From assembly GCA_015493575.1 (NCBI GenBank), contig WGCX01000315.1, positions 1 through 35,188 of the forward strand: DNA of 35,188 bases, read 5' to 3'. The position numbers were made by a program, and so were the translations under genes. Shown piece after piece: positions 12,643-35,188 of the stretch; position 1 is the stretch's first letter, and each line of letters opens with the position of its first letter. Source of the stretch: Desulfobacteraceae bacterium (GTDB taxonomy: Bacteria > Desulfobacterota > Desulfobacteria > Desulfobacterales > Desulfobacteraceae). The notes under the pieces were generated by a model. It was not told the DNA's origin, did not search any database, and saw only the letters and a program-made list of their open reading frames with translations.

Positions 12643-12680
12643 ACTTGTTACATAAATTTAGACTTGTTACATCAATTTAG
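12643..12680. repeat. 19-bp tandem duplication at the fhs 3' end
   Basis: ACTTGTTACATAAATTTAG / ACTTGTTACATCAATTTAG; the second copy contains the fhs stop codon. Confidence 0.9.
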
Positions 12681-14440: not shown

Positions 14441-14886
14441 TTTGCCCATCCTCCTAAATTTAAAATAAATTTTTTGACGGAGAAATTTCTCCCTCACCAT
14501 TTCCATAAAAACAAAGAAAAATCCGCAAAAATATATAAGCACTCAAACTTTTCAGCTTTTTCCATGTAATCTTTATGAATTTATTAATTCAAATTTTGCT
14601 GATTGATGCTGATTTATACTTTTACGGAGTTAATCAAATATAATACACAAAATTTCCCGTAATAATTTTTCAAAAAACAAGGTTGAAATTAAGGTATTTT
14701 TCTTAAGTCAGATCCCCTACCATAAAAAAAAAAATCAGTCAACACTATTAGAAGAAATTAAAACTTTTCCATGGCGATGCATCACCTTAAGCCGGTTGAA
14801 TCCTGGCAAAAGTACCGGTATCTTATCATTGATGTGGTTGAAAGCAAATCACAGCTTGCCTGTTATACTTATAATATCCGGCATAT

Positions 14887-15002
14887 TCAATACTGATGGT
14901 CTCGTAAAAAGTCGAAAATGCTAAAACTGCTATTAATAATTTCAGTGTGTTACGACTGAAAAAATGCCAAAATCTGACTTTTGACAGGTTCATCAATACT
15001 GA
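14887..15002. mobile_element. MITE-like 96-bp element (14897-14992) with 10-bp flanking direct repeats
   Basis: TCAATACTGA at 14887-14896 and 14993-15002 flank TGGTCTCGTAAAAAGTC...GACTTTTGACAGGTTCA (terminal inverted repeat, 12 of 17 matched). Confidence 0.7.
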
Positions 15003-15075
15003 AAATAAAATAATTAAAAGCAATGAATAGATTTTATTTTATTTATTAATTAAATAATATAAATACCCTCATCTG

Positions 15076-15104
15076 TTGACAAATTTTGATTCAGGTTGTA
15101 AAGA
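15076..15104 (+). promoter_or_regulatory. Putative sigma70-like promoter upstream of cdhD
   Basis: TTGACA-17 nt-TAAAGA. Confidence 0.35.
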
Positions 15105-15282
15105 AATCTATTTAATCGAGTTAAACCGTCTACCGGTTTTGACTCTTTTTTTAAGTTTTTGTGATGGTTACTATGGTAATTTGAAAATTAATGACCATTT
15201 TAGTCAGTACGACCATTATACCATTATGATAAAATAGTGAACCCGCAACCAATAACAACCAACATTTTATAAGGAGGTCAAA

Positions 15283-16809
15283 GTGGGATTTGAAATTACA
15301 AAAGAATCCTATGCCGGCGGAATCAAGGAAATCACCATAGGGAAAGGTGATAAAGCCCTCACTGTCGGTGGAGAAACATGCTATCCTTTTTACCAGTTTG
15401 AAGGCGAAATACCCAACAGACCCATTATTGCTATGGAAATATGGGATATGGAACCGCCTGAATGGCCGGCGGCAGCACTTGAGCCATTTAAAGACGTTCT
15501 CACTGATCCTGCTGCATGGGCAAAAAAATGTGTTGATGAATACGGCGCACAGGCAATTGTTCTGCAACTGAAAAGCATCGATCCCAATGATAAGGATGCA
15601 AGTCCTGAAGAAGCTGCTGCAACGGTAAAAAAAGTTCTTGCAGCAATTGATGTACCCCTTATTCTGTGGGGATGCACAGCTCCTGCCAAGGATGAAGAAG
15701 TTCTCAAGAAAATTGCCGAAGAATGTCAGGGTGAAAATCTCACCATAGGCCCTGTTGAAGAAAAAAATCACAAGGGAATCGGCGCTGCTGCAATGGGCTA
15801 TGGACATACCATCATATCCTCCTCTCCAATTGATGTTAACCTTGCAAAACAGGTTAATATTCTTCTCGAAAATCTTGGGATGCCTTTGGACAAAGTTATT
15901 GTTGATCCCACAACGGGCGGCCTTGGATATGGCATGGAGTATTCCTATTCAGTAATGGAACGTCTTGCCATGGCAGCCATGAATCAGGGTGATGACAAAC
16001 TCCAGAATCCCATGATCAACAACCTTGCCAATGAAGTGTGGAAATGCAAAGAGGCTAAACTCACCGTTGAAGGGGAGCCTCTGCTTGGAGATCCTGAAAG
16101 ACGTGCCATACTCATGGAATCCATTGGTGCAGTTTCATATCTCATGGGCGGATCAAACATACTTATAATGCGTCACCCTGAATCAATAAAACTTACAAAA
16201 GCATTTATTGACCTTATCATGGATGGGGGATCAGCAATGGATGTCGGCCCCATTAAAAAACGTCTTGATGATGTTGATATAGATTTTGCAGCCCTTGCAC
16301 CTGAAGTTGATCTGACCATTGAAGAAGAAGCAGGCTCTGCAAAAAAAGCCGCTCCTGCAAAAAAAGAAGAAAAACCTGCTGCCAAACCTGCTGCAAAGGC
16401 TGAACCTGCTCCTGCTGCGAAGGCTGAAAAAACCGTACCTGCAGAAACTCCGGCAGCTCCGGTAAAAGAGGAAAAACCCGCTGTTGATGCCAAGGCAGAA
16501 GCAGAAGCTGCTGCAAAGGCAAAAGCTGAAGCAGAAGCAAAGGCAAAGGCAGATGCCGAAGCAAAAGCAAAAGCCGAGGCAGAAGCAGAAGCAAAGGCAA
16601 AAATTGAAGCGGAAAAACAGGCTGAAAAGGATGCCGCTGCAAAACTTGAGGCTGAAGAACAGGCATTAAGAGATAAAAGAGCGGCAGAAATGGCAAAACA
16701 TGCTGCTGAGCAAACTGCTGCACCTAAAGCAGAAATTAAAAAAACAGCAGCAAAAACGCAGTTGTCAAAAACTGCAAAACTTTTAAATCAGCTTAAAAAA
16801 CGTAGATAA
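15283..16809 (+). CDS. acsD/cdhD: Corrinoid iron-sulfur protein small subunit / acetyl-CoA decarbonylase-synthase delta subunit, with long Ala/Lys/Glu-rich C-terminal tail
   Basis: TIGKGDKALTVGGETCYPFYQFEGEIPNRPIIAMEIWD...PTTGGLGYGMEYSYSVMERLAMAAM; GTG start after AAGGAGG; followed by cooS/acsB. Confidence 0.93.
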   Translation: MGFEITKESYAGGIKEITIGKGDKALTVGGETCYPFYQFEGEIPNRPIIAMEIWDMEPPEWPAAALEPFKDVLTDPAAWAKKCVDEYGAQAIVLQLKSIDPNDKDASPEEAAATVKKVLAAIDVPLILWGCTAPAKDEEVLKKIAEECQGENLTIGPVEEKNHKGIGAAAMGYGHTIISSSPIDVNLAKQVNILLENLGMPLDKVIVDPTTGGLGYGMEYSYSVMERLAMAAMNQGDDKLQNPMINNLANEVWKCKEAKLTVEGEPLLGDPERRAILMESIGAVSYLMGGSNILIMRHPESIKLTKAFIDLIMDGGSAMDVGPIKKRLDDVDIDFAALAPEVDLTIEEEAGSAKKAAPAKKEEKPAAKPAAKAEPAPAAKAEKTVPAETPAAPVKEEKPAVDAKAEAEAAAKAKAEAEAKAKADAEAKAKAEAEAEAKAKIEAEKQAEKDAAAKLEAEEQALRDKRAAEMAKHAAEQTAAPKAEIKKTAAKTQLSKTAKLLNQLKKRR

Positions 16810-16891
16810 AAGACAGAGCATAGCCCCTTACAATAAAAAATGATTAATGCTTTGTTAAAAACATTAAATCAATCAAGAGGAGGAACCTCTA

Positions 16892-18913
16892 ATGGCAGAA
16901 GTAAAAAAAATAAAGGCAGCAAAAAAACCAAAACTTGCTGATCCAAAGGAAGCTTCAATTGATCTGACATCACAGGAATTGATTGCACATGCCCAAAAAC
17001 TTGGTGTGGAAACAATTTTTGACCGTGCAATGAACTTAAAACCCTGTGCCATCGGCATCCAGGGCATCTGCTGCAAGAACTGCGCAATGGGTCCCTGCAG
17101 ACTGCCCCTTCCAAAGGGCGGAATAGAAGGTGAAGACACAAGAAAAGGTATGTGCGGAGCAACTCCAAACACAATTGCCGCAAGAAACTTTGTAAGGATG
17201 ATTGCAGCAGGCTCTGCTGCACATTCAGACCACGGCAGGGGTGTTGCAGAGGTGTTTCTCTCTGCGGCGAAAAAAGAAACAGATGCATACAAAATAAAAG
17301 ATGTCGATAAACTTCTTGATATTGCGCCATGGCTCGGCGTTGAAACAACCGTGGAAGTTGATGGAGAAGAGCTTGACAGGGATATTGATGAAATCGCCGT
17401 TGAAGTCGGTGAAAATGCTCTTAAGGAATGGGGTAAAAACGAAGGCGAACTTCTCTACGCAAAAAGAGCACCAGCCCCTCTTTATGCTAAATGGAAAAAG
17501 AACGGTGTTATCCCGAGAAATATTGACAGAGAAATCGTTGAAATCATGCATCGCACCCATATAGGTGTTGACCAGGATTATAAGAACCTGATTAAACAGG
17601 GTACCAGAGCAGCCCTTTGTGATGGCTGGGGCGGTTCTATGCTGGCAACTGATCTTCAGGATGTTCTTTTCGGAACTCCTTATCCTCTTCAGTCCGAGGC
17701 AAACCTTGGCGTGATGAAAGAAGACCATGTAAACCTCATCGTTCATGGTCATGAGCCGGTTCTTTCCGAAATCATTGTAGCTGTGGCCCAGTCCCAGGAG
17801 ATGATTGACTATGCAAAAACAAAGGGAGCCAAAGGTATTCAGCTTAGTGGAATCTGCTGTACTGCAAACGAGCTTCTCCAGCGCCATGGAATCCCCACTG
17901 CAGGTAACTTTCTCCAGCAGGAACTTGCCATTATAACAGGGGCATGTGATGCCATGGTTGTGGATATCCAGTGTATCATGCAGAACCTTGCAAATGTTGC
18001 AAAATGCTTCCATACAAAACTCATCACAACCCATCCCCTCGGGAAAATGGAGCAGGAAAATGTTATCCATATTGAGTTTAACGAGCATTATGCCCTGGAA
18101 GATGCAAAACGCATTGTTAAAATGGCAATTGACAACTTTGAAAACCGCAAAAGCGAAGTGATGATTCCCCAGCATAAAACCACTCAGATCGCAGGATTTG
18201 GTGTTGAATCCATTAAATATCACCTTGGCGGAACATTCAGGGGCGATTATTACACACTTAACGACAATATCATTAACGGCAGAATCCGAGGTCTTGCAGG
18301 TATAGTCGGATGCAACAATGCAAGGTCAAAACACAATGATCAGCATGTAACGATTGCCAAGGAACTGATCAAAAACGATGTCCTTGTCCTTACCACAGGA
18401 TGCAGTGCCATTGCATGTGCCGAAGCAGGACTTATGACCCCTGAGTCTGCCCAGGTTTATGCGGGCCAGGGCCTTGCAGAAGTATGTGAAACAGTTGGTA
18501 TTCCACCTGTTCTTCACCTTGGTTCCTGTGTTGACAACAGCCGTATCCTCCTTGCTGCAACTGAAGTTGTAAAAGCAGGGGGACTTGGTGATGACATCAG
18601 TGATCTACCCGCTGCAGGAAGTGCTCCTGAGTGGATGAGTGAAAAAGCGATTTCCATTGGTCATTATTTTGTTACATCTGGTGTTTACACAGTATTTGAT
18701 CTCCCGTTCCCAACATCGGGAGCTCCTGTTTTCCACAATTATATCACCAAAGAACTTGAAGAAATCTACGGTGGAATGTGGGCTTTTGCATCGGATCCCA
18801 TCGAACATGCCCATAAGATGATTGCCCATATAGACAAGAAAAGAAAAGCCCTTGGTATTGACAAGGCAAGGGAAAGAGTTCTCATGGACTTTGATGACCG
18901 CCGGGCTCTGTAA
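16892..18913 (+). CDS. cooS/acsA: Anaerobic CO dehydrogenase catalytic subunit
   Basis: KPCAIGIQGICCKNCAMGPCRLP...CGATPNTIAARNFVRMIAAGSAAHSDHGR...LGSCVDNSRI. Confidence 0.96.
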   Translation: MAEVKKIKAAKKPKLADPKEASIDLTSQELIAHAQKLGVETIFDRAMNLKPCAIGIQGICCKNCAMGPCRLPLPKGGIEGEDTRKGMCGATPNTIAARNFVRMIAAGSAAHSDHGRGVAEVFLSAAKKETDAYKIKDVDKLLDIAPWLGVETTVEVDGEELDRDIDEIAVEVGENALKEWGKNEGELLYAKRAPAPLYAKWKKNGVIPRNIDREIVEIMHRTHIGVDQDYKNLIKQGTRAALCDGWGGSMLATDLQDVLFGTPYPLQSEANLGVMKEDHVNLIVHGHEPVLSEIIVAVAQSQEMIDYAKTKGAKGIQLSGICCTANELLQRHGIPTAGNFLQQELAIITGACDAMVVDIQCIMQNLANVAKCFHTKLITTHPLGKMEQENVIHIEFNEHYALEDAKRIVKMAIDNFENRKSEVMIPQHKTTQIAGFGVESIKYHLGGTFRGDYYTLNDNIINGRIRGLAGIVGCNNARSKHNDQHVTIAKELIKNDVLVLTTGCSAIACAEAGLMTPESAQVYAGQGLAEVCETVGIPPVLHLGSCVDNSRILLAATEVVKAGGLGDDISDLPAAGSAPEWMSEKAISIGHYFVTSGVYTVFDLPFPTSGAPVFHNYITKELEEIYGGMWAFASDPIEHAHKMIAHIDKKRKALGIDKARERVLMDFDDRRAL

Positions 18914-19021
18914 AAATACATCTCACATGAGGTGAGACATATGCCTTTATATAAATTTAATACAAATTTTTAATCTTTTTTAAAAAAACGGATTAATAAA
19001 TCCTCAACGAAGGAGGACGTA

Positions 19022-21235
19022 ATGTCAAAATTAATAGCATTTGCAGCCATTCAGGGCGGTTACAAAGTTGTTGCTCAGGCTGAGGGAGCATATCATAAAG
19101 CTCTTGAAACCTATAACGCCGATACAAAAGTTGGTTTTCCAAACACCGGTTATTATTTACCTGTAATTTATTCCCTTTTTGGAATAAAAATCGAAACCCT
19201 TGAAGATATGAAGGCTCCCCTTGAAATTGCAAGGGGCCTTCTGCCTCCCCATATTAAAGGTAAACACTGGCTTCCCTATCTCGGGCCTCTCCTTGATGCC
19301 GGTATGGCAGGAATAATCTCCTATGAAATCATAGAAGCACTGAGATATCTTAATGAGCCTGATTTTTATCTCCATGCGGAAGATCCTGATATAGAAGCAG
19401 GTAAATTATGGACAGGTGCTGCCGATGATGTTGTTTTCAGGAAAAGAGGTGTTGAATTTGTTGACGGTTCCGCTCCCGGATTTGCAGCCATTGTAGGCTC
19501 TGCTCCTGATCCTGAAATTGCAAAAATGATTGTTGAAGATTACCAGAAAAAAAGTCTCTATATCTTCCTTGCTGCAAACCACAACGGAACAACCGTTGCG
19601 GAACAGCTCATTGAGGCAGGGGTGCAGATCGGCTGGAGCACAAGGATTGCATGTTTCGGACCTGATATCTCTTCTGCTGTATTTGCATTAGGCTTTGCAA
19701 ACAGGGTTGCCATGGCATTTGGCGGTATTGAGCCAGGCGATTACAAAAAAATCCTCAAATACAACAAAGACAGGGTTTTTGCCTTTGTAAACGCTCTTGG
19801 TGATGTTGGAACAGAATGGGGTGTTGCAGCAGCAGGTGCAGTAAACTGGGGTTTCCCAACCCTTGCCGATACGGATATCACACAGATACTTCCAACAGGT
19901 ATCTGTACATATGAGCATGTTGTTGCACCGGTCGCCTATGATGAAATATGCCAGAAATCAATTGAAACAAGGGGACTTAAGGTTAAAGTATCTGAAATAA
20001 ATATCCCGTGTGCATTTGGTCCTGCATTTGAGGGTGAGCGCGTCAGGGGAGCTGATCTTTTTGTCCAGTGCGGCGGTGGAAAAACACAGTGCACAGAGCT
20101 TGTAAAATCAGCTGATATGAATGAAATTGAGGATGGAAAGATAAGTGTTGTAGGCCCCGATATTACAGATCTTAAGCAGGGGGATACTTTCCCGCTTGCA
20201 ATCTATGTACAGGTTGCAGGCCGTGAATTCCAGGAAGATTTTGAGCCGATCCTTGAAAGGCAGATTCATCATCTTGTAAATTATATCCAGGGTATCATGC
20301 ACATAGGCCAGAGGGATATTTCATGGATACGTGTCAGTAAGGCAGGCGTGGAAAAAGGTTTTACCTTGAAAGACATCGGTGTTGTCCTCCATGCAAAGTT
20401 CCACCAGGAATTTGAAAAAATTCTTGACAAGGTTCAGGTCACACTGTTCACAAAGCAGGAGGATGTTGACAAATGGACCAAGATCGCAAGGGATGAATAC
20501 CATACACGTGACGCACGTGTTGATTCAATGACCGATGAAAGTGTTGAGACATATTACTCATGTACGCTATGCCAGTCATTTGCACCAAACCATGTCTGCA
20601 CGGTAAGCCCTGAAAGAACAGGTCTTTGCGGAGCATACAACTGGATGGACTGCAGGGCTTCATATGAAATTAACCCAACCGGCCCAAACCAGCCCATTGA
20701 AAAGGGAGAATGCCTTGATCCAAAGCTGGGTCAGTGGAAGGGTGTTAATGAATTTGTCAAAAAGGCCTCCAGAGGCGCCATTGAAAAATACAATCTTTAT
20801 TCCATGGTATATGACCCCATGACTACCTGCGGATGCTGCGAGTGTATTGCAGCAATGCTTCCATCATGTAACGGTATTATGACCGTTGGAAGAGATTATC
20901 TCGGTGAAACGCCATGCGGAATGAAATTTACAACTCTTGCTGGTGTTATGGGCGGTGGCGCTTCCTCACCTGGCTTTGTGGGACATTCAAAATACAACAT
21001 CACCCAGGGTAAATTTCTCCTTGGTGACGGCGGACTTTTAAGAATGGTCTGGATGCCCAAGATGCTTAAGGAAGAGCTTAAGGACAGGTTAATCGCCAGA
21101 GGTGAAGCAATGGGCGTTCCCGGGCTTTATGACATGATTGCCGATGAAACCGTTGGAATAACGGAAGAAGAAATCCTTCCCTTTCTCCAGGAAAAAGGTC
21201 ATCCTGCACTTACCATGGAGTCTTTAATCGGCTAA
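19022..21235 (+). CDS. acsB: Acetyl-CoA synthase (CO-methylating), A-cluster subunit
   Basis: YYSCTLCQSFAPNHVCTVSPERTGLCGAYNWMDCRA...PMTTCGCCECIAAMLPSCNGIM. Confidence 0.96.
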   Translation: MSKLIAFAAIQGGYKVVAQAEGAYHKALETYNADTKVGFPNTGYYLPVIYSLFGIKIETLEDMKAPLEIARGLLPPHIKGKHWLPYLGPLLDAGMAGIISYEIIEALRYLNEPDFYLHAEDPDIEAGKLWTGAADDVVFRKRGVEFVDGSAPGFAAIVGSAPDPEIAKMIVEDYQKKSLYIFLAANHNGTTVAEQLIEAGVQIGWSTRIACFGPDISSAVFALGFANRVAMAFGGIEPGDYKKILKYNKDRVFAFVNALGDVGTEWGVAAAGAVNWGFPTLADTDITQILPTGICTYEHVVAPVAYDEICQKSIETRGLKVKVSEINIPCAFGPAFEGERVRGADLFVQCGGGKTQCTELVKSADMNEIEDGKISVVGPDITDLKQGDTFPLAIYVQVAGREFQEDFEPILERQIHHLVNYIQGIMHIGQRDISWIRVSKAGVEKGFTLKDIGVVLHAKFHQEFEKILDKVQVTLFTKQEDVDKWTKIARDEYHTRDARVDSMTDESVETYYSCTLCQSFAPNHVCTVSPERTGLCGAYNWMDCRASYEINPTGPNQPIEKGECLDPKLGQWKGVNEFVKKASRGAIEKYNLYSMVYDPMTTCGCCECIAAMLPSCNGIMTVGRDYLGETPCGMKFTTLAGVMGGGASSPGFVGHSKYNITQGKFLLGDGGLLRMVWMPKMLKEELKDRLIARGEAMGVPGLYDMIADETVGITEEEILPFLQEKGHPALTMESLIG

Positions 21236-21245
21236 TGATCAAATA

Positions 21246-21278
21246 ACTGACCTGTGACCCCTTGGTTTCAGGTCAGTT
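21246..21278 (+). terminator. Stem-loop after acsB
   Basis: AACTGACCTG...CAGGTCAGTT inverted repeat. Confidence 0.5.
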
Positions 21279-21310
21279 CATGATTAAACTATATTTAATA
21301 AAACGAAAAA

Positions 21311-21356
21311 GATGGCCCGGGCCACCAGAAATTTTCCGGGCCATCATTTCCTTTTA
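21311..21356 (+). terminator. Terminator-like hairpin after acsB
   Basis: GATGGCCCGG...CCGGGCCATC followed by a T-rich stretch (ATTTCCTTTT). Confidence 0.7.
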
Positions 21357-21416
21357 TAAGAAATAACACATAAATCATTACATTTATTTATTTTTTTGTC
21401 AGAATCGTTGATTCTT

Positions 21417-21460
21417 TGAGGCAAATCCGGGTCAATCCAGATTTGCCTCATGGCAGTTAT
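21417..21460 (+). repeat. Dispersed hairpin repeat copy upstream of acsC
   Basis: TTTGAGGCAAATCCGGGTCAATCCAGATTTGCCTCATGGCAGTTATA. Confidence 0.85.
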
Positions 21461-21525
21461 ACAGATTATGTACGAATTATAGGTAAACATACAATTTTTT
21501 TATTTTAGAATTTAAGGAGATAGAA

Positions 21526-22866
21526 ATGGCATTAACCGGTATACAGATATTCAAACTCCTTCCCAAAACAAACTGCAAGGAGTGTGGTGTTCCAACATGC
21601 CTTGCCTTTGCAATGAATCTGGCTTCAGGGAAAGCCGAGCTTGACAGCTGTCCCTATGTATCCGATGAATCAAGGGAAAAACTTGCCGAAGCATCAGCAC
21701 CTCCAATCCGTCCTGTAAAAGTTGGTAAAGGTGTCAGGGCAGGAGTTACAGGTGGGGAAACAGTTTTGTACAGACATGAAAAAACTTTTTTCAACCCCAC
21801 GCTCCTTGCTGCAACAATAACATCCGATACAGATGCTGCGGATCTTGAAAAAAGGCTTAAAGTATTTAATGCATTCCAGTATGAACGTGTGGGGCTTAAT
21901 TTAAGACCTGAACTTATTGCTCTTAAAGATGCAGGAAATGGCAAAGATGCCTTTGCTGAACTTGCAAAGACAATTGCTGAAAAATCTGAATTCAACCTTA
22001 TTCTCATGACCGAAGACCTTGATGTGATGAAGGCCGGAGTTGACGCAGCAGGTTTTAAGCGACCCCTTCTCTATGCAGCAACCAAAGACAATGCAGACGA
22101 CTTTGGAGCTCTTGCAAAGGATAGCGGACTGCCCCTTGCAGTAAAGGCTGAATCCATTGATGCTCTTATTGCTTTAACTGAAAAACTTACAGGCATGGGA
22201 TTAAAGGACCTTGTTATTGATTCAGGATCAAGGGAGATCAAACAGGCCTTTGAGGACCAGATCGCAATCAGACGTGCTGCACTCAAGGCAGGCAACCGTG
22301 CTCTTGGTTTCCCCACAATCACCTTTCCATGTGAAATGGCTTCAAACCTTGATATGGAATCACTTATTTCAGCCATGTTCATCGCAAAATACGGCGGAAT
22401 TGTTGTGATGTCAGATTTTACAACGGAATCGATCTTTCCATTGCTTCTTGAAAGGCTCAATATATTTACTGATCCACAGAGACCAATGACTGTAACCGAG
22501 GGTATATTTGAAATTGGTTCACCCGATGAAAACTCTCCTGTGCTTGTTACAACAAACTTTGCACTTACATATTTTATTGTATCCGGCGAAATTGAAGGAA
22601 GTAAAGTTCCTTCATGGCTGCTTGTAAAAGACTCTGAAGGCTTAAGTGTTCTTACTGCATGGGCAGCCGGAAAATTCAGCGGCGATGATGTCGGACTTTT
22701 TGTTAAAAAAAGCGGTATCGCAGATAAGGTTAAACACAAAGAACTGATAATTCCAGGATATGCAGCAGCCATTGCAGGTGAAGTGGAAGAAGAACTCCCG
22801 GACTGGACAATTACCGTCGGCCCGAGGGAAGCAGCTCACCTTGCTGCATTTCTCAAGGCAAGATAG
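21526..22866 (+). CDS. acsC/cdhE: Corrinoid iron-sulfur protein large subunit / acetyl-CoA decarbonylase-synthase gamma subunit
   Basis: MALTGIQIFKLLPKTNCKECGVPTCLAFAMNLASGKAELDSCPYVS (4Fe-4S motif). Confidence 0.95.
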   Translation: MALTGIQIFKLLPKTNCKECGVPTCLAFAMNLASGKAELDSCPYVSDESREKLAEASAPPIRPVKVGKGVRAGVTGGETVLYRHEKTFFNPTLLAATITSDTDAADLEKRLKVFNAFQYERVGLNLRPELIALKDAGNGKDAFAELAKTIAEKSEFNLILMTEDLDVMKAGVDAAGFKRPLLYAATKDNADDFGALAKDSGLPLAVKAESIDALIALTEKLTGMGLKDLVIDSGSREIKQAFEDQIAIRRAALKAGNRALGFPTITFPCEMASNLDMESLISAMFIAKYGGIVVMSDFTTESIFPLLLERLNIFTDPQRPMTVTEGIFEIGSPDENSPVLVTTNFALTYFIVSGEIEGSKVPSWLLVKDSEGLSVLTAWAAGKFSGDDVGLFVKKSGIADKVKHKELIIPGYAAAIAGEVEEELPDWTITVGPREAAHLAAFLKAR

Positions 22867-23020
22867 ATAGTAAACGCTTACAGTCTGGAATTGACTGTGA
22901 ATGGCTACGACAATTTATTGCCGGAGATAACGGTTAATTATTTTTTAGTTGACCTCTCCGGCATTAACAGTTATGTATATTTTTTATAATATAACCTCAT
23001 AACTGCAAAGGAGAACATAA

Positions 23021-23929
23021 ATGATACTTTTTGGAGAAAGTCTGAACGTTATTTCCAATGTGATCGGCAAGGTATTCAAGGAACCCGATCCTTCCAAGCG
23101 TGACCCTGAAGTCATCCAGAAGGAAGTGCTCAGGCAGAAGGACAAGGGTATGGATTACATTGATATCAACCTTGGGCCTGCTAAAAAATTCGGTGTTGAG
23201 CTGATGCCCTGGGTCTGCAATGTTGTTCAGGAGGCTGTGCCTGGCATGCCTCTGCTTCTTGATTCATCAAACATCGATGCCATAGAGGCAGGTCTTAAAG
23301 TCCTGAAACCGGCTGATCAGCCGCATATAATCAATTCAATCATGGTAAGACCTGCAAGATACGAGAAAATGGTTCCCCTTGCAGCACAATACGATGCTGA
23401 TTTTATTGCACTTATGTGGGGTCCCGAGGGTCTTCCAAGGGATGAGAACGAGCGTGCAGCACTTGCTGTGGAGCTTCTCTATTTTGCCAATGAAGCTGGC
23501 ATTCCCAATGAAAAGATCTGGGTGGACGGGATTGTAACACCTGTGAATATTCAGCAGCCACAGGCAATAAGCCTGATGAATTTTACCGCAATGATTGAGG
23601 ATATTGCACCCGGTGCAAAGACCACCTGCGGTCTTTCCAATATTTCAAACGGACCTCCTGATCATCTGCGCCCCATTCTTAACCAGACTTATATGGTAAT
23701 GCTCCAGAAACACGGAATGAAATCAGTTATTTCAGATCCCCTTGACGATCAGCTGACTGCAATTGCAAAGGGAAAACGCCAGGATATTGTTGATTTAATC
23801 TATAAAGTTATGGATGACAGTTCATCTGTCGATCCTTCAAGTCTGTCTGAAGAACTCCTTGCTTATTACAAAACCGTAAGGGTTATACTTGGAGAAACTC
23901 TGTACTCTGACTCATGGCTTGAACTTTAA
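23021..23929 (+). CDS. acsE: Methyltetrahydrofolate:corrinoid iron-sulfur protein methyltransferase
   Basis: MILFGESLNVISN...DKGMDYIDINLGPAKK...LLLDSSNIDAIEAGLKV...TTCGLSNISNGPPDHLRPILN; pterin-binding fold. Confidence 0.93.
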   Translation: MILFGESLNVISNVIGKVFKEPDPSKRDPEVIQKEVLRQKDKGMDYIDINLGPAKKFGVELMPWVCNVVQEAVPGMPLLLDSSNIDAIEAGLKVLKPADQPHIINSIMVRPARYEKMVPLAAQYDADFIALMWGPEGLPRDENERAALAVELLYFANEAGIPNEKIWVDGIVTPVNIQQPQAISLMNFTAMIEDIAPGAKTTCGLSNISNGPPDHLRPILNQTYMVMLQKHGMKSVISDPLDDQLTAIAKGKRQDIVDLIYKVMDDSSSVDPSSLSEELLAYYKTVRVILGETLYSDSWLEL

Positions 23930-25629: not shown

Positions 25630-27417
25630 TTACATTATGGCGCCGAACCTGCAATTGCCGTAACAGCTCAGGCATTTAACGCATTTATCCTGATCGATAA
25701 AAGCAACCTCTTTTTTCTTCCAGGTAATTGCATCGGCAGGGCATCCCTTAAAGCAGGCACCGCATTTTTTACATTTCTCAGGATCAACTTCAAACTTCAA
25801 AAGAGCTACACATGTTCTTGCAGGACACTCCTTGCGGTAGATGTGAGCCTCATATTCATCCCTGAAATATCTCAGGGTTGCAAGAACCGGGTTAGAAGCT
25901 GTCTGACCAAGACCGCACAGGGCTGACTGACCAACCACATGGGTGAGCTCTTCAAGCTCTTCAATATCTCCGGGTTTTCCCTTTCCCTCACAGATATTTT
26001 CAAGGATTGTCAGAATTCTCTTTGTTCCTTCACGGCAGGGGGTACATTTCCCGCATGACTCATCCTGGATAAAATCCATGAAATAGCGTGCCATATCAAC
26101 CATACAAGTCCTGTCATCCATGACAATGGCACCACCTGAACCCATTATGGCTCCAACTTTGGCAATTTCCTCATAATCAACAGGAGTATCAAGATATGCC
26201 TCGGGAACGCATCCGCCTGAAGGACCTCCAAGCTGAACCGCCTTGAATTTTCTCTTATTTGGAACTCCACCGCCGATATCATATACAATGGTTCTAAGCG
26301 TTGTACCCATGGGAACTTCAACAAGCCCTATATTTGTTATATCACCTGATAAAGCAAACACCTTGGTACCCTTACTTGTATTGGTTCCAATACTTGCATA
26401 CCATGCCCCGCCCTTTAAAATAATCTGGGCAACATTGGCAAGGGTTTCAACATTATTTAGGATTGTCGGTTTTTCCCAGAGCCCCTGGTTTGCAGGAAAA
26501 GGCGGTCTGGGTCTGGGCATACCCCTTTTCCCTTCAATGGATCTCATCAAAGCAGTTTCTTCACCGCATACAAAAGCACCTGCACCCTGGTAAATTTCAA
26601 TGTCAAAATCAAAACCAGAGCCTAATATATCTTTTCCAAGAAGTCCGTATTCATTTGCCTGTTCAATTGCTATGGTAAGTCTTTTTATGGCAAGTGGATA
26701 TTCAGATCTGCAATAAATATAACCTTTATGTGAATTAATAGCTTTTGCAGCAATGATCATACCTTCAAGTACAGCATGAGGATCTGATTCCAGAACAGTC
26801 CTGTCCATAAACGCACCGGGGTCGCCTTCATCTGCATTACAGAGAACGTATTTTTCATCACTTTTAGCACCCATGGCGAATTTCCATTTAAGACCGGTTG
26901 GGAAACCAGCTCCACCCCTGCCCCTTAAGCCAGACTCAAGCATCTCATCAACGATCTGCTCCGAAGTCATTTCTGTCAAGGCTTTTGCAGCACCGAAATA
27001 ACCATCTCTTGCAATATATTCATCAATAATTTCAGGATCTATAACACCTTTGTTACGCATCACCCTGAACACCTGGGGTTCAAAAAAGGGAATATCATCG
27101 AGTTTCGGAATTTCATCCTTTGGAGCAGGTTCCTTATATAGAAGACGTTCAACGGGATTGCCTTTAATAAAATGCTCCTCAACAAGTTCTGCTGCATCTT
27201 CAGGTTTAATATTCTGATAAAACACGCCCCCGGGCTGAACCGTCATAACAGGGCCAATGGCACAGAAACCGTTACACTCTGTCATTTCTATTTCTATTTT
27301 GTTTTCCAGACCATGTTTTTTTATTTCATCTGAAAGAGCTGTTTTAACCTTTTCACTTCCTGCAGCGCTGCATCCCTCTCCGCCACAGAGCATCAGCTGA
27401 ATTCCGGTTTCATTCAT
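25630..27417 (-). CDS. NuoF/HydB/HndC-like NAD(P)H-binding flavoprotein with N-terminal thioredoxin-like [2Fe-2S] and C-terminal 2[4Fe-4S] domains
   Basis: N-terminal LMLCGGEGCSAAGSEKV...ECNGFCAIGP; LRGRGGAGFPTGLKWKFA; CNADEGDPGAFMDR; ESCGKCTPCREG; C-terminal CKKCGACFKGCPADAI...CVKCLSCYGNC. Confidence 0.93.
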   Translation of the reverse strand: MNETGIQLMLCGGEGCSAAGSEKVKTALSDEIKKHGLENKIEIEMTECNGFCAIGPVMTVQPGGVFYQNIKPEDAAELVEEHFIKGNPVERLLYKEPAPKDEIPKLDDIPFFEPQVFRVMRNKGVIDPEIIDEYIARDGYFGAAKALTEMTSEQIVDEMLESGLRGRGGAGFPTGLKWKFAMGAKSDEKYVLCNADEGDPGAFMDRTVLESDPHAVLEGMIIAAKAINSHKGYIYCRSEYPLAIKRLTIAIEQANEYGLLGKDILGSGFDFDIEIYQGAGAFVCGEETALMRSIEGKRGMPRPRPPFPANQGLWEKPTILNNVETLANVAQIILKGGAWYASIGTNTSKGTKVFALSGDITNIGLVEVPMGTTLRTIVYDIGGGVPNKRKFKAVQLGGPSGGCVPEAYLDTPVDYEEIAKVGAIMGSGGAIVMDDRTCMVDMARYFMDFIQDESCGKCTPCREGTKRILTILENICEGKGKPGDIEELEELTHVVGQSALCGLGQTASNPVLATLRYFRDEYEAHIYRKECPARTCVALLKFEVDPEKCKKCGACFKGCPADAITWKKKEVAFIDQDKCVKCLSCYGNCRFGAIM

Positions 27418-27483
27418 ACTTTACTCCTGATCGTATTAAACTAATGTTAAGCGTTCACACTGTCCCGCGTCTCAATCGACTGA

Positions 27484-27978
27484 TTATTCGTAGGCTTCAA
27501 GAACATCCTTAACCTTTTGTGATGTCATTTCACCATGGATATCTTTATCCACAATCATCACAGGGGCAAGGCCGCATGCGCCGAGACAACGGACACATTC
27601 AAGGGAAAAACGCCTGTCATCGGTTGTATCACCCTCTTTTATTCCATATTCTTTATGGACACTCATCATTGACTCTTTACTTCCTTTAACATAGCAGGCA
27701 GTGCCTGTGCATATCCTTATGGTATGTCTTCCCTTGGGTTTCAGTGAAAAAAAGGAGTAAAATGTTGCAACACCAAAAACCTGACTTATGGGGAGTTTAA
27801 GTTCCTTGCTCACATACTCTAAAAGCGTACCCGGAAGATAGCCAACAACGTTCTGAGATTCACGAAGAACAGTAATCAGAGAACCGGGTGTACCTTTCCA
27901 TTTTTCAATCACCTGATCAATTTTTTCCCACATATCACGTTCTATATCCGGGTGGTGAGGATAAACGCAGTCTTTCAT
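27484..27978 (-). CDS. NuoE/HydC-like [2Fe-2S] subunit
   Basis: VLRESQNVVGYLPGTLLEYVSKELKLPISQVFGVATFYSFFSLKPKGRHTIRICTGTACYVKGS...CVRCLGACGLAPVM; ATG 27978 preceded by GGAG. Confidence 0.93.
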   Translation of the reverse strand: MKDCVYPHHPDIERDMWEKIDQVIEKWKGTPGSLITVLRESQNVVGYLPGTLLEYVSKELKLPISQVFGVATFYSFFSLKPKGRHTIRICTGTACYVKGSKESMMSVHKEYGIKEGDTTDDRRFSLECVRCLGACGLAPVMIVDKDIHGEMTSQKVKDVLEAYE

Positions 27979-28429
27979 ATTCTTCTCCAATATTCTTCTC
28001 CCTCAAGAGATATATTAATATTTTTTCCTGAAATCAAATCATATGCAACCTTTGCACAACGTCCACTTCTGCCCTATTTCCATATCAGGATAGAATTTAA
28101 AGTCCCAAAATACAAGATTAACGATGCCCGCAACACATTTACACCATCCACATTTCTCGTTTTTTTTACAAAAAAAATTTGAAAAATTAAGGAGTTAGGC
28201 ACCAAATGTATTATCGGGATTATATATTCCCTTTTTCATGAACTCAAAAAAAAATTGAATCATAAATTTAATTTCATAATCACCGTAAATTGTCAATATT
28301 CTATTACACTTTTTATACGATATATCTATTTATGCCCCGTTGATTACAAAGTCAATAGTAAATGGTTCTAACTACTATATATTTTTGTCAAAAGCTAAAA
28401 TTTTCGCTGAAAAATGAATTGATATTATA

Positions 28430-29613: not shown

Positions 29614-30006
29614 ATGAAGACTAATAATAAGCCAAAAATTACTTTATTTTATTGTATCAATGCATTTATGGAATCTGCTCCTGTGTTTGAGGGCTGCTCC
29701 ATAAAAACAATTAAAATGGCATGTTCATCAATGACAAAGGATATTTTCCTCTTAAAAGCCTTTGAGGCAGGGGCAGATGCAGTTCTTGTATTTGCCTGTC
29801 CTGAAAAGCAGTGCCGCTATGTTGAGGGAGGCATAAGGGCAAGAAAAAGAATTGAATGGACTAAACATTTACTTGATGAGACAGGAATTGACGGCAGACG
29901 TCTTGCTATTTTCAATACCGATATAAAAGACCCGAAAGCCGCCGGAAAAATCATCAGGGAAACCATTGAACTTATTAATGAACTGGGACCCAATCCTGCT
30001 GCATGA
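29614..30006 (+). CDS. MvhD-like hydrogenase/heterodisulfide-reductase-associated [2Fe-2S] protein (divergent)
   Basis: LLKAFEAGADAVLVFACPEKQCRYVEGGIRARKRIEWTKHLLDETGI matches the MvhD pattern; upstream of metV-metF. Confidence 0.8.
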   Translation: MKTNNKPKITLFYCINAFMESAPVFEGCSIKTIKMACSSMTKDIFLLKAFEAGADAVLVFACPEKQCRYVEGGIRARKRIEWTKHLLDETGIDGRRLAIFNTDIKDPKAAGKIIRETIELINELGPNPAA

Positions 30007-30034
30007 CAATTAAAAAAACTTACGGAGTAAACCT

Positions 30035-30706
30035 ATGATAGTTGGTGAACAAAAACCGATTAAAGAGATCATGGAAAGTGTTGCGCCATACAAAAGAGTT
30101 CTCATCCTTGGCTGCGGAACATGTGTTAAAACATGTTTTGCAGGCGGAGAAGATGAGGTCGAAGTACTGGCATCTGCCCTTCGTCTTGCATTTAAGACGA
30201 AAAAGCAAAGATCAATTGAAATTGAAGAGCTGACAATTGAAAGGCAGTGTGAAAATGAATTTATCCAGGAAGCTGCAGCAGGCATCGGAAGAAATGATGT
30301 TGTGCTCTCCCTTGCATGCGGAGCCGGGGTGCAGGCAATGGCTGAGAGATTTCCAGCTGCTCCTGTTCTGCCCGGGGTGAATACAACCTTTATCGGCATA
30401 CAGGATCGTCCGGGAATTTTCAGCGAAAGATGTTCCGGATGCGGTGACTGCGGACTTGCTCGATTCGGCGGCATATGCCCTGTTACAAGATGCTCGAAAA
30501 AGCTTTTGAACGGACCATGCGGCGGCTCCCAAAACGGCAAATGCGAGGTTGATCCCAGCATAGACTGTGCATGGCATTTGATCATAGAACGTCTGACTGA
30601 ACTTGGGCAGTTAGATAATTTAAAAACATATATTCCCCCTAAAAACTGGCAGACCAGCACTTCAGGAGGGCCAAGAAAACTGGTCAGGGAGGATCAGATA
30701 ATATGA
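30035..30706 (+). CDS. metV: MetV-like methylenetetrahydrofolate reductase Fe-S/zinc subunit
   Basis: VLILGCGTCVKTCFAGGEDEVEVLASALR...CSGCGDCGLARFGGICPVTRCSKKLLNGPCGGSQNGKCEVDPSIDCAW. Confidence 0.9.
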   Translation: MIVGEQKPIKEIMESVAPYKRVLILGCGTCVKTCFAGGEDEVEVLASALRLAFKTKKQRSIEIEELTIERQCENEFIQEAAAGIGRNDVVLSLACGAGVQAMAERFPAAPVLPGVNTTFIGIQDRPGIFSERCSGCGDCGLARFGGICPVTRCSKKLLNGPCGGSQNGKCEVDPSIDCAWHLIIERLTELGQLDNLKTYIPPKNWQTSTSGGPRKLVREDQII

Positions 30707-31635
30707 GTAACGATGATATGACGATTAAACCATTGAGCAAATTACATGAAATTCTGCTGAACGGTGAATTTGCCGTTACAGGGGAATGCGGCCCCCCACG
30801 GGGAGCCAACAGAGAAGTTATTGCAAAAAAAGCAGGTCTTTTAAAAGGCTTTATTGATGCTGTAAATGTTACAGACAACCAGACGGCAATTGTCAGGATG
30901 TCAAGCATAGCAGGGGCTGTTCACCTTATTGAAGCAGGACTTGAACCTGTGATGCAGATGGTTGTAAGGGACCGCAACAGGATAGCTCTCCAGTCCGATA
31001 TCCTCGGGGCCTATTCCATGGGAATCAGGAATATTTTATGCCTTTCAGGGGATCACCAGAGTTTCGGAAGCCAGCCAGATGCCCTGAATGTATTTGACAT
31101 CGATTCCTTAAACCTTGTCCGCACAGTAAAGGATATGAGGGAAACAGGAAAAGACATGAGCGGATTTGAACTTGACATAGCTCCTGCAATGTTCATAGGA
31201 GCTGCGGCAAATCCCTTTGCAGATCCCTTTGAATACCGCGTTCTTCGTCTTGCAAAAAAAATAGATGCCGGGGTTGATTTCATCCAGACCCAGTGCATTT
31301 ACAATATGGCCAGATTTAAGCAATGGATAAAAATGGCAAGAGAAGAAGGGCTTACGGAAAAGGTTTATATCCTTGGAGGAGTGACTCCCCTTAAATCAGC
31401 AGGCATGGCAAGATACATGAACAACAAGGTTGCAGGCATGGATATCCCCGATGAAATTATAAAAAGAATGGGGAGTGTCCCAAAGGAAGATGCAATTGAA
31501 GAGGGTATGAAAATCTGCCTTGAAACCATCGCTGAACTTAAGGAACTTGACGGTGTAAGCGGTGTCCACATCATGGCCATTGAGTGGGAAGAAAAAGTTG
31601 GCGAAATTGTAAAAAGAGCAGGACTTAAAAAATAG
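30703..31635 (+). CDS. metF: Methylenetetrahydrofolate reductase
   Basis: FAVTGECGPPRGANREVIAKKAGLLKGFIDAVNVTDNQTAIVRMSS...NILCLSGDHQSFGSQPDALNVFDIDS; 4-bp overlap with metV. Confidence 0.95.
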   Translation: MSNDDMTIKPLSKLHEILLNGEFAVTGECGPPRGANREVIAKKAGLLKGFIDAVNVTDNQTAIVRMSSIAGAVHLIEAGLEPVMQMVVRDRNRIALQSDILGAYSMGIRNILCLSGDHQSFGSQPDALNVFDIDSLNLVRTVKDMRETGKDMSGFELDIAPAMFIGAAANPFADPFEYRVLRLAKKIDAGVDFIQTQCIYNMARFKQWIKMAREEGLTEKVYILGGVTPLKSAGMARYMNNKVAGMDIPDEIIKRMGSVPKEDAIEEGMKICLETIAELKELDGVSGVHIMAIEWEEKVGEIVKRAGLKK

Positions 31636-31698: not shown

Positions 31699-33138
31699 AT
31701 GCCTGCAAAATATAATATTGCTGTAAAAGACACTCTGCCGAGGTTTTATCCCATTGGCAAGTATTCCACCGTTGAATTCAGGGAAGACTGTGCCGGAAGC
31801 TGCAGAGAATGCGTAAAAAAAAAATGCGTGTACGATATTTTTAAAAAAAATTATCTCCACATGAGTAAAATGGAGGACCCTGAATACCTTTATGAATGCA
31901 AAAGCTGCTTTCGGTGTGTCCAGGAATGCACAAAGGGAATTTTTTCAAGAATCATTAATCCTGAATACAGAACTCTTGGAGACGATTACTGGAGACCGGA
32001 TCTCCTTCACACCACATGGTACCAGGCCCACACGGGAAAAGTGCCTGTGTCCGGCGCAGGGTACAGAGGACCGTTTGCCGGAAAAGGCTTTGATTCCATG
32101 TGGACGGACATGTCTGAAATTGTACGGCCCACAAGGGATGGTATCCATGGACGTGAATACATCAACACATCCATAGAGCTTTCAAGAAGACCTGACCATT
32201 TAAATTTTAACGCGGACGGCAGCCTTGAAACAAAAGAGATACCCATACTTGAAATTCCGGTTCCCATTTTATTCCAGATGCCCCCGTTTGGAATTTTAAG
32301 CAAAACAGTGCTTGTTTCAATTTTAAAAGCTGCAGGAGAAATAGGAACAAAATTGTTTCTTACCCCGGAAGATATATTTGATTTTCCCGGAGAAAAACTT
32401 GATAATGATCAATTAAACAAGTATGCGGACAATATTATTTTCTGCCTTGAAAAAGACAATTATGCTGATCATAAAGCTCTGATTGAAGAAAGTGCCATTA
32501 TTGAACTGAAATACAGTCCAGGTATTGAAAAAGAGTTAGGTAAACTTAAAAGCATAAATAAAGATCTTATCATTTCCATTGGCATTCCACTTAATTCAAA
32601 TGCCTGTTCTCTGGCACTTGAACTTGCAGAAGCAGGTGTTGATACCCTTCACTTTTACGCCGATAAAAACGGCAGAGAACTTGATTCTGAAAACCCGCGC
32701 TTTGTAAAGGATGTACTCAGAGATATCCATACAGGTCTTGTTAAAGCATCAATGCGGCGTATGGTCAACATTCTTGTAACAGGGGGCATTGCCCTTGCCG
32801 AGCATGTCAATAAAGCCATTATCTGCGGTGCTGACGGCGTTGTCATTGATCTTCCGCTTCTTATTGCAATGGAATGCAGGCTTTGTACAAGGTGCGAGAA
32901 CGGATTATCATGCCCCGTTAAATTTGAATCCATTGACCCTGACTACGGCAGTCAGAGAATCGTCAATCTCATGGGTGCATGGCGCAACCAGATGCTTGAA
33001 ATGTTAGGCGCAATGGGGCTTCGTGAAGTAAGGAGACTGCGCGGTGAAGTCGGCAGATCAATGTGGTTTGAAGATCTTGAAAAGGAAAGCTTTTCTCCGA
33101 TCTTCGGAGAACGAAAACAAGCTCAATATACGGAATAA
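31699..33138 (+). CDS. Glutamate-synthase-like FMN-domain protein with N-terminal Fe-S region, degenerate paralog
   Basis: N-terminal CAGSCRECVKKKC...CKSCFRCVQEC; C-terminal ILVTGGIALAEHVNKAIICGADGVVIDLPLLIAMECRLCTRCENGLSCPVK parallels the GOGAT tail of the next gene, but the canonical central motifs are missing. Confidence 0.75.
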   Translation: MPAKYNIAVKDTLPRFYPIGKYSTVEFREDCAGSCRECVKKKCVYDIFKKNYLHMSKMEDPEYLYECKSCFRCVQECTKGIFSRIINPEYRTLGDDYWRPDLLHTTWYQAHTGKVPVSGAGYRGPFAGKGFDSMWTDMSEIVRPTRDGIHGREYINTSIELSRRPDHLNFNADGSLETKEIPILEIPVPILFQMPPFGILSKTVLVSILKAAGEIGTKLFLTPEDIFDFPGEKLDNDQLNKYADNIIFCLEKDNYADHKALIEESAIIELKYSPGIEKELGKLKSINKDLIISIGIPLNSNACSLALELAEAGVDTLHFYADKNGRELDSENPRFVKDVLRDIHTGLVKASMRRMVNILVTGGIALAEHVNKAIICGADGVVIDLPLLIAMECRLCTRCENGLSCPVKFESIDPDYGSQRIVNLMGAWRNQMLEMLGAMGLREVRRLRGEVGRSMWFEDLEKESFSPIFGERKQAQYTE

Positions 33139-33141
33139 ACT

Positions 33142-34686
33142 ATGAAAAATAAAAATTTTAAACTGCCGGAAGTAAAGGAAGTTCCTTCAAGGTTTCGAAA
33201 TACCATTGGCAAATATGTTATCAAAAGAAGCTCAAAATGCATATCCTGCGGACTGTGCGCAGAACTGTGTCCATATGGCGTACATTTAAGATTTGATAAT
33301 TATTCAAAACCATTAAGGCCCGTTGAACACAAATGCATAGGGTTTGAATGCAGCAAAACAGATCATTACTGCATTGATAAATGTCCGGAAAATGCACTTT
33401 CCCTCAGGGAAAACCCTCTGCTTGAGACCCTTGGTGACTACAGGTGGACATCTGAAATGCTCCTTGCCCATTTTGCAATGGCTGAAACAGGAGATGTCCC
33501 AAAGGTGAATCTTGAGTACAGTCTTGGCAATTCAGGCGGGGGATTTGATAAAATGCGTTTTATCCATCCTGATCCTGAACAAACCATTGATATCAGTGAT
33601 GAAGAGATTGACACCAGCATTGAACTTAATAAAACAGGGGACAACAGGCCTGCAAAAACAATTTCCATCCCATGCTATGGCGGCGGAATGTCCTACGGAT
33701 CAACATCTTTAAGTGTGATTGTCGGAAGGGCAAGGGCAGCAAAAAGACTTAATTCCCTTGTCTGCACAGGGGAAGGAGGGTATCCTGAAAATTTTCTTCC
33801 CTACAAAGACCATGTGATCACCCAGGTGGCTACAGGGCTTTTCGGGGTCAGGGAGGAAACCATCCAGAACAGCCCGGTTGTGGAATTTAAATATGCCCAG
33901 GGCGCAAAACCCGGCCTTGGCGGACATCTTCTCGGAGAAAAAGTAACTGAGGCCGTTGCTGCAATGCGTGAAACCGTGGTGGGTCATTCACTTTTTTCGC
34001 CTTTCCCGTTTCACAGTGTTTATTCGGTGGAGGATCATAAAAAACATGTTGACTGGATAAAGGAGATAAATCATAAGGCCCTGTGCTCCATAAAGGTTTC
34101 CACTCCGACAGATGTTGATATGGTTGCCGTTGGTGCATATTACGCAGGTGCCCATATAATACACATTGACGGCAGTTACGGAGGAACAGGGGCTGCTCCT
34201 GATATTGCAAAGAAAAATATTGCCATGCCCATTGAATATGCCATACCAAAGGTTCACTCTTTTCTTGTTGAAGAAGGGGTCAGGGACAAGGTCTGCCTCA
34301 TTGCAAGCGGAGGTATCAGAAACGCCGTTGATGTTGCCAAGGCAATAGCCCTTGGAGCTGACGGCTGTGTTATCGGTACGGCGGATCTTGTGGCCGTGGA
34401 ATGTGTAAGATGCGGAAACTGCGAAAGCGGCAGGGGATGCGCCAGGGGAATTGCATCAACAGATGCCGAGTTAAGTGAAATGATCACAGAAGAATACGCT
34501 GAACAGCGTCTTGTCAATATGTATATGGCATGGCGCAGGCAGTGGTGCGATATTTTAAGGGGTTTTGGCATGAAAAGCATCAAAGAACTCAGGGGACGTT
34601 CAGATCTTCTTGTCCATCTTGACTATCTTGACGAAGAGGAAAAAAAGAATTACAGGCCCGCACCTGACTTTAAAATGATTATTTGA
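33142..34686 (+). CDS. Glutamate synthase-like FMN-domain protein (GltB2-type) with N-terminal 4Fe-4S region
   Basis: CISCGLCAELCPYG; TGEGGYPENF; QGAKPGLGGHLLGEKV; IHIDGSYGGTGAAPD; LIASGGIRNAVDVAKAIALGADGCVIGT; CVRCGNCESGRGCARG. Confidence 0.92.
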   Translation: MKNKNFKLPEVKEVPSRFRNTIGKYVIKRSSKCISCGLCAELCPYGVHLRFDNYSKPLRPVEHKCIGFECSKTDHYCIDKCPENALSLRENPLLETLGDYRWTSEMLLAHFAMAETGDVPKVNLEYSLGNSGGGFDKMRFIHPDPEQTIDISDEEIDTSIELNKTGDNRPAKTISIPCYGGGMSYGSTSLSVIVGRARAAKRLNSLVCTGEGGYPENFLPYKDHVITQVATGLFGVREETIQNSPVVEFKYAQGAKPGLGGHLLGEKVTEAVAAMRETVVGHSLFSPFPFHSVYSVEDHKKHVDWIKEINHKALCSIKVSTPTDVDMVAVGAYYAGAHIIHIDGSYGGTGAAPDIAKKNIAMPIEYAIPKVHSFLVEEGVRDKVCLIASGGIRNAVDVAKAIALGADGCVIGTADLVAVECVRCGNCESGRGCARGIASTDAELSEMITEEYAEQRLVNMYMAWRRQWCDILRGFGMKSIKELRGRSDLLVHLDYLDEEEKKNYRPAPDFKMII

Positions 34687-34863: not shown

Positions 34864-34898
34864 TTTTACAGCATGCTTCATAAGGAATTTATTTGACA

Positions 34899-35188
34899 AT
34901 GAAATACGATAAAGAAAAAATGATAAAAAATCTTCTCGCATCAAGGGCAAAACTTCCCTCCAACAGGGATATCCCGGTGAAAAAATGTGACGAGGAAGGA
35001 GGATGCGGAGTAACCGGGTTCATCTCTTCGGTTCCCATAAGGGGACGTCATATTTATGAGCCCTCTGTACAGATGCACAACCGCGGTAACGGCAAAGGCG
35101 GTGGAATTGCGGCTGTGGGGCTTTCTGCAGATGATCTTGGTGTCACCCAGGAGGTTCTTGACAGCCACTACCTTTTACAGGTTGCATA
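34899..35188 (+). CDS. Class II glutamine amidotransferase (glutamate synthase GATase domain), 5' part only, runs off the window
   Basis: MKYDKEKMIKNLLASRAKLPSNRDIPVKKCDEEGGCGVTGFISSVPIRGRHIYEPSVQMHNRGNGKGGGIAAVGLSADDLG; CGVTGF and HNRGNGKGGG are GATase II-like; no stop before the window end. Confidence 0.85.
   Translation, partial: MKYDKEKMIKNLLASRAKLPSNRDIPVKKCDEEGGCGVTGFISSVPIRGRHIYEPSVQMHNRGNGKGGGIAAVGLSADDLGVTQEVLDSHYLLQVA

Follow-up and report, generated by a model that had tools for sequence, protein, structure and literature searches.

A putative iron-sulfur-rich glutamate synthase with a non-catalytic twin of its FMN subunit in anaerobic bacteria

Two adjoining genes near the end of a Desulfobacteraceae contig encode a catalytic FMN subunit of glutamate synthase (GOGAT), here called B, and a paralog of it that has lost the catalytic core, A. 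Together with the gene that follows them, which is predicted to encode a glutaminase subunit, C, they probably constitute an Fe-S-rich variant of glutamate synthase (ABC), in which A would act as a non-catalytic Fe-S subunit docking an MvhD/MetV or Hdr electron donor. The window that we analysed is the whole stretch of 35,188 nucleotides (contig WGCX01000315.1, forward strand), and its relevant features are as follows.

12677-23929, Wood-Ljungdahl genes, namely formate-THF ligase on the minus strand, CODH, ACS, two corrinoid proteins of the CdhD type and a pterin-binding methyltransferase
25630-27990, minus strand, a NuoE-like protein and a NuoF-like one with Fer4 domains, divergent, upstream of MvhD-MetVF-ABC
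29614..30006, plus strand, MvhD/FlpD-type [2Fe-2S] electron-transfer protein (Pfam FlpD, E 9.3e-23)
30035..30706, plus strand, MetV-type Fe-S partner of methylene-THF reductase (PF12225, methylene-THF reductase C-terminal, E 8.3e-38)
30703..31635, plus strand, MetF, methylene-tetrahydrofolate reductase (Pfam MTHFR, E 5.5e-36)
31699..33138, plus strand, subunit A, 479 aa, GOGAT FMN-domain paralog without catalytic core
33142..34686, plus strand, subunit B, 514 aa, catalytic FMN glutamate synthase subunit with an N-terminal 2x[4Fe-4S] domain
34893..35188, plus strand, subunit C, first ~98 aa, predicted class-II glutaminase start (EEGG^CGVTGF), gene cut by the contig end

A and B lie head to tail, with 3 nt (33139-33141) between the stop codon of A and the ATG of B. 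A preliminary description of this DNA had read them as tandem GOGAT-like paralogs, and this holds: the proteins are homologous by BLASTP (25% identity, E 4e-34) and by profile-profile comparison (E 1e-58, 417 columns), in which the gap in A corresponds to the catalytic core. B carries the full set of FMN-GOGAT motifs attributed to it at that stage (EGGYPE, KPGLGGHL, HIDGSYGGTGAAPD and ASGGIRNAVDVAKAIALGADG), matches Pfam Glu_synthase from model position 52 to the end (E 5e-88) and has GOGAT alpha subunits as its nearest relatives in the PDB (E 1.5e-62). A matches the same Pfam model over positions 260-368 only, the last third (E 6.9e-13). In a phylogenetic tree both A and B were monophyletic (support 100/100 and 100/99, respectively), on a long branch to A that leaves its exact origin unsure; judged from these comparisons, the two are distant paralogs. 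A search of plasmids for a closer named relative of A returned only 23%-identical GOGAT proteins from two Firmicutes, which match B better.

The extent of the catalytic loss was evaluated against a reference set comprising relatives of B, a canonical planctomycete GltB and further FMN-GOGAT subunits, namely the other one of the window genome, a second of modular type and one from Firmicutes. Fifty-five positions are invariant across these catalytic subunits, all of which B has by construction of the comparison; A has lost 39 and kept 16. The losses fall on the MS.G, TGEGG, Q..A.G.FG, QGAKPG.GG, SP, YS.E, K and GGTGA positions. Essentially all A proteins retain G325, G362, G377-A378, C393, C399 and C405, the first four of these residues presumably being phosphate-site positions, as is generally understood for FMN barrels. 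The catalytic motifs are absent from all 41 diverse A proteins that we aligned, each of them in an open frame, so that a hidden shift restoring the motifs, which was looked for, was not found. Selenocysteine or an in-frame TGA in A, flagged in two genomes (G212 and G301), was discarded, as the stops are natural C-termini.

What has been conserved in A is its Fe-S equipment. The protein consists of an N-terminal 2x[4Fe-4S] domain, a near-invariant WTDMSEIVRPTRDGIHGREYI segment, a compact barrel and a C-terminal CxxCxxCx5C motif, and 12 cysteines are invariant in the 41 diverse sequences (C31, C35, C38 and C43; C67, C70, C73 and C77; C393, C396, C399 and C405), in agreement with the Fe-S N-terminus and C-terminal cysteine motif first noted. 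The last four, that is, the three cysteines of the GOGAT Fe-S cluster (C393, C399 and C405) together with C396, are lost in one divergent locus (L098). The stretch WTDMSEI-RPTRDGIHGREYI, at residues 135-155 of A, is mostly invariant across the same 41 proteins and aligns with a pre-barrel loop common to modular GOGATs and shortened in B.

The AlphaFold model of A (pLDDT 76 overall) contains a complete, compact eight-stranded barrel at about residues 187-390, which is well predicted (pLDDT mostly >85). The earlier proposal that the central region of A is replaced or shortened, with the motifs gone, thus stands as regards the motifs; the region itself is present as a compact barrel. The invariant 118-154 segment was modelled with low confidence, which would be in keeping with a segment that folds on contact with a partner. 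The best Foldseek matches of the model are FMN-dependent barrels, namely flavocytochrome b2, glycolate and lactate oxidases and the GOGAT structures 1OFD and 7MFM. These neighbours, the complete small barrel and the invariance of G362-G363 and G377-A378 among A proteins would suit a flavoenzyme with a changed reaction, in which the phosphate-binding part that was kept may bind FMN or another cofactor. Yet conservation in A is concentrated in the Fe-S regions and the 118-156 segment, and the barrel interior and the beta1-beta6 loops are poorly conserved, unlike an active site; we regard a second catalytic activity as improbable.

Genome comparisons give good support to the reading of A and B as an active/pseudo subunit pair, which had been suggested from the window itself. 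A scan of GTDB genomes for A gave 263 tblastn-confirmed relatives among the pattern hits, from phyla that include Desulfobacterota, Chloroflexota, Planctomycetota, Omnitrophota, Latescibacterota, Sumerlaeota, Armatimonadota and Hydrogenedentota. Among the Desulfobacterota that have the cluster is a strain grown in the laboratory, Desulfospira joergensenii DSM 10085. In the best 80 of these 263, which were fetched, B adjoins A wherever the contig continues (80/80), the exception being a contig that ends inside A (L051). Among 297 Desulfobacterota genomes, 77 have one A and 75 have one B, and none has B only; in the two genomes with A only (G030 and G068), the coordinates suggest that A is in an open-ended frame or close to the end of a contig. 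L054 has A and B fused into one protein of 1090 aa, and in eight Desulfobacterota genomes spanning three families (G028, G080, G104, G116, G145, G223, G281 and G309) a single open frame of 975-1099 aa contains both matches. Pairwise dN/dS in ten close pairs was 0.05-0.20 for A and 0.03-0.14 for B, values which indicate that A is under purifying selection and functional. Despite the loss of its catalytic motifs, we therefore give practically no credence to A being a decaying duplicate or a frameshift artefact: the obligate pairing, the fusions, the low dN/dS and the monophyly of A and of B rule out decay, and the 263 confirmed relatives and the open frames throughout also speak against it.

The pair is two thirds of a larger unit. 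C follows B in 59/59 loci with enough sequence, and the part of it visible in the window is 67.7% identical to C of locus L043. Full-length C proteins of relatives have about 880 aa and a C-terminal GXGXG domain; in L043 the Pfam GXGXG match lies above the cut-off (E 3.7e-14) and that of GATase_6 just below it (E 1.8e-5). An alignment of 24 sequences revealed invariant residues at C30, after EEGG, R229, H254-N255-G256 and T279-D280-T281-E282 (L043 numbering), to which we assign roles from general knowledge of class-II amidotransferases, C30 being the likely nucleophile. The model of C (pLDDT 66) is usable in its GXGXG and middle parts and poor in the glutaminase half, and its only fold matches with E <0.001 are GOGAT alpha subunits. 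C is hence predicted to be a class-II glutaminase and GXGXG protein, with a glutaminase half that is weakly recognised and poorly modelled. With this content, A, B and C together would hold one copy of every GOGAT alpha-subunit module and, in addition, the FMN-domain paralog. The preliminary description had envisaged the pair as possibly a hetero-oligomeric Fe-S flavoenzyme not described before; a hetero-oligomer remains our expectation, and the description had overlooked both C and the MvhD, MetV, MetF or Hdr setting of the genes.

That setting is strikingly constant. In the window, mvhD, metV and metF adjoin (29614-31635) as a MetVF-type MTHFR cluster, and the ABC cluster stands beside the Wood-Ljungdahl genes. 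In 62 loci with at least 2.7 kb before A, the upstream genes include MvhD in 61, MetF in 58 and MetV in 48, MvhD being the most constant. In 41 loci that could be tested on both sides, MetV alone was found in 30, HdrCB alone in 9, neither in 2 and both in none, an exclusion confounded by phylogeny. Where Hdr genes are present, HdrCBA lies after C as an alternative to MetV (loci with HdrCB include L062, L063, L068, L071, L072, L077, L078 and L079, among others). HdrA after C carries a GltD-like insertion (Fer4_20 and Pyr_redox_2) in L072, and in L077 a short portion of HdrA is fused to NuoE and followed by NuoF. No hdr genes occur in the window from 28589 to the contig end; since NuoE and NuoF follow HdrCBA after ABC in other lineages, the NuoF/NuoE-like genes of the window are a possible NADH module. 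The neighbourhood also varies around an intact ABC, as in the following locus of genome G057.

L098, 8358-15859: ABC, no MvhD/MetVF; the genes upstream are those of a FAD/Fe-S oxidase (630 aa) and, divergently oriented, a type III glutamine synthetase

This locus has carA beside ABC as well, and its A lacks the C-terminal cysteine motif, so that the corresponding cluster seems dispensable there. Such variants suggest that the core unit is ABC and that the electron donor module is exchangeable. Further genes were noted nearby. A family of about 550 aa with a partial Glu_synthase match (~47 bits) lies near ABC in L041 (122-1771), L015 (1418-3067) and L096 (10179-11726); in a planctomycete (L070), canonical gltB-gltD are directly upstream of MetF-MvhD-A-B; and a GAF-type regulator with, by eye, an ANTAR-like C-terminus recurs upstream in Desulfobacula and relatives (L001, L007, L010, L011, L043, L045, L053 and L060). 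A search for riboswitches and other Rfam RNAs near the cluster gave only tRNAs, in 7 sources.

Sequence and genome data establish the identities of the subunits, the catalytic loss in A, its conserved cysteines, the obligate A-B pairing and the fusions; what we infer from them is a physical ABC complex, its cluster types, the donor and the order and direction in which electrons move. In the mechanism that we propose, the N-terminal cysteine of C, bared by removal of a propeptide, would free ammonia from glutamine, and the FMN barrel of B would add it to 2-oxoglutarate and reduce the imine to glutamate. A would be the stoichiometric, non-catalytic partner of B. Electrons from an MvhD-linked donor would reach the two [4Fe-4S] clusters at its N-terminus and its C-terminal cluster, and would be passed on to B. 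The donor would be MetV/MetF in Desulfobacterota and HdrCBA with an NAD(P)H module elsewhere. MvhD is a [2Fe-2S] protein that feeds HdrA in methanogens. Because A keeps the electron-carrying parts and a B-like fold, and because MvhD is its foremost upstream neighbour, we propose a path from MvhD (with MetV or HdrCBA) through A to B.

The same neighbourhoods could be taken further, to a single redox supercomplex of ABC with MvhD-MetVF (or MetF-HdrCBA) that would couple C1 redox chemistry and glutamate synthesis electronically, a possibility that we entertain only tentatively. The recurrence of MvhD and MetF upstream of A across phyla agrees with it, as does the presence after C of an HdrA with GltD insertion, or of NuoEF, where MetV is absent; complexes of HdrABC, MvhD and MetVF are known from, or have been proposed for, Moorella and other organisms (PMC5736913, PMC7325909, PMC9012536). 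However, ABC is intact with no adjacent MetF in L041, L059, L094 and L098, the last of which lacks MvhD as well, and catabolic C1 flux should far exceed glutamate synthesis, which would make obligate coupling hard to balance in Wood-Ljungdahl organisms. The details that such a supercomplex might have, methylene-THF reduction or methyl-THF oxidation, possibly flavin-based bifurcation at HdrA, and A as the junction, are equally doubtful. Also speculative, and to a like degree, is the idea that the pseudo-FMN GOGAT is the high-potential acceptor arm of an MvhD/Hdr bifurcating hub shared with methylene-THF reductase; if true, the making of glutamate would itself be linked to the reduction of ferredoxin or to C1 redox reactions.

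A glutamate synthase, the reading that we prefer, is consistent with the distribution of other nitrogen genes. Near ABC we found glnA at 10 loci, carA at 10, amtB at 5, purF at 4 and PII at 3, with carAB also noted (PII and glnA were identified from sequence). ABC is not the sole GOGAT of the window genome (88.75% complete), since another contig, C183, carries a complete modular one beside carA (L089, 1576-7182). The proteins of this second system are one of 371 aa, a 544-aa FMN subunit and an 832-aa GXGXG-GltD; the first has no Pfam hit and is read as the amidotransferase from its sequence and position. Canonical GltB was sought in the window genome and not found, GATase_2 being absent and Glu_syn_central giving only a sub-threshold match inside B. 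Other genomes differ. In G101 (100% complete), A and B are the only Glu_synthase proteins, there is one glutamine synthetase and the GDH C-domain was not found. G065 (one contig, 99%) also has one glutamine synthetase, neither GDH domain was found in it, and beyond A/B its Glu_synthase matches are limited to a weak one of 44 bits in a 522-aa ORF. G057 (100%) has no GOGAT other than ABC, and the complete chromosome of G008 is without another strong GOGAT match, but GDH is present. As far as gene content tells, ABC is the only clear GOGAT in some genomes with glutamine synthetase and without GDH, and some of these bacteria appear to have no other enzyme with which to make glutamate from ammonium. 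Glutamate synthesis is therefore the most likely role of ABC, and the genomes with glutamine synthetase but neither GDH nor another clear GOGAT lend indirect support to the predicted formation of glutamate from glutamine, 2-oxoglutarate and electrons.

An enzyme acting on a C1 amine instead of ammonia, like N-methylglutamate synthase, would explain the methyl-folate neighbours, and N-methylglutamate synthase has similar modules; split GOGAT-like subunits in a MetVF neighbourhood are compatible with this. Nevertheless, the glnA, PII, amtB and carAB neighbours, the glutaminase signature intact in C and the position of ABC as sole GOGAT candidate where GDH is lacking all argue against it, and we deem it very improbable.

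As a glutamate synthase, ABC would be related to known systems without coinciding with any. It has the class-II glutaminase, FMN barrel and GXGXG domain in common with NADPH-dependent GltB/GltD (1EA0, 2VDC, 6S6S); in ABC, however, these are split: C combines glutaminase with GXGXG, and B carries the FMN barrel together with a 2x[4Fe-4S] of its own. An inactive FMN-domain paralog is added, and no GltD gene is adjacent, except for the GltD-like HdrA insertion of some lineages. The modular (archaeal-type) GOGAT, as in L089 and in Monoglobus (L103), likewise has split subunits, and its FMN subunit, which in the Firmicutes form is about 35% identical to B, has a ferredoxin-like N-terminus. It differs in having no inactive twin, a separate glutaminase, and a GXGXG domain that either stands alone or is joined to a GltD-like domain.

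On the donor side, published MvhD-MetVF complexes of the Moorella type share with ABC loci the clustering of MvhD, MetV, MetF and, in some lineages, HdrCBA, and the accessible parts of their descriptions make no mention of GOGAT FMN or glutaminase subunits (PMC5736913, PMC7325909, PMC9012536); nor does the part available of a report of HdrABC beside metF in Seep-SRB1g (PMC10553843). HdrL, or type III HdrA, has a GltD insertion like that of HdrA after C at several loci, with no link to a glutamate synthase FMN or glutaminase subunit drawn in the sections at hand (PMC2702500, PMC12054007). Archaeal F420-dependent glutamate synthases (FGltS) have been proposed that, as suggested here for ABC, use an unusual electron donor module; that module is FrhB-like, and a paired inactive FMN subunit is not described in the text available (PMC9012536). 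Within the accessible open-access literature, there is no description of paired active and inactive GOGAT subunits or of a GOGAT with MetVF/MvhD, and our best reading is that, on this scope, ABC is an undescribed variant of glutamate synthase.

Ammonium enters biomass by two main routes, of which glutamate synthase is one. ABC is carried by many anaerobic bacteria, almost always near folate-reductase and electron-transfer genes, and if it is a glutamate synthase it would explain how glutamate is formed in bacteria such as G101 and G065. It would also tie the assimilation of nitrogen to the MvhD/Hdr/MetVF part of anaerobic energy metabolism, and A would be a clear example of a pseudoenzyme kept as a subunit for electron transfer.
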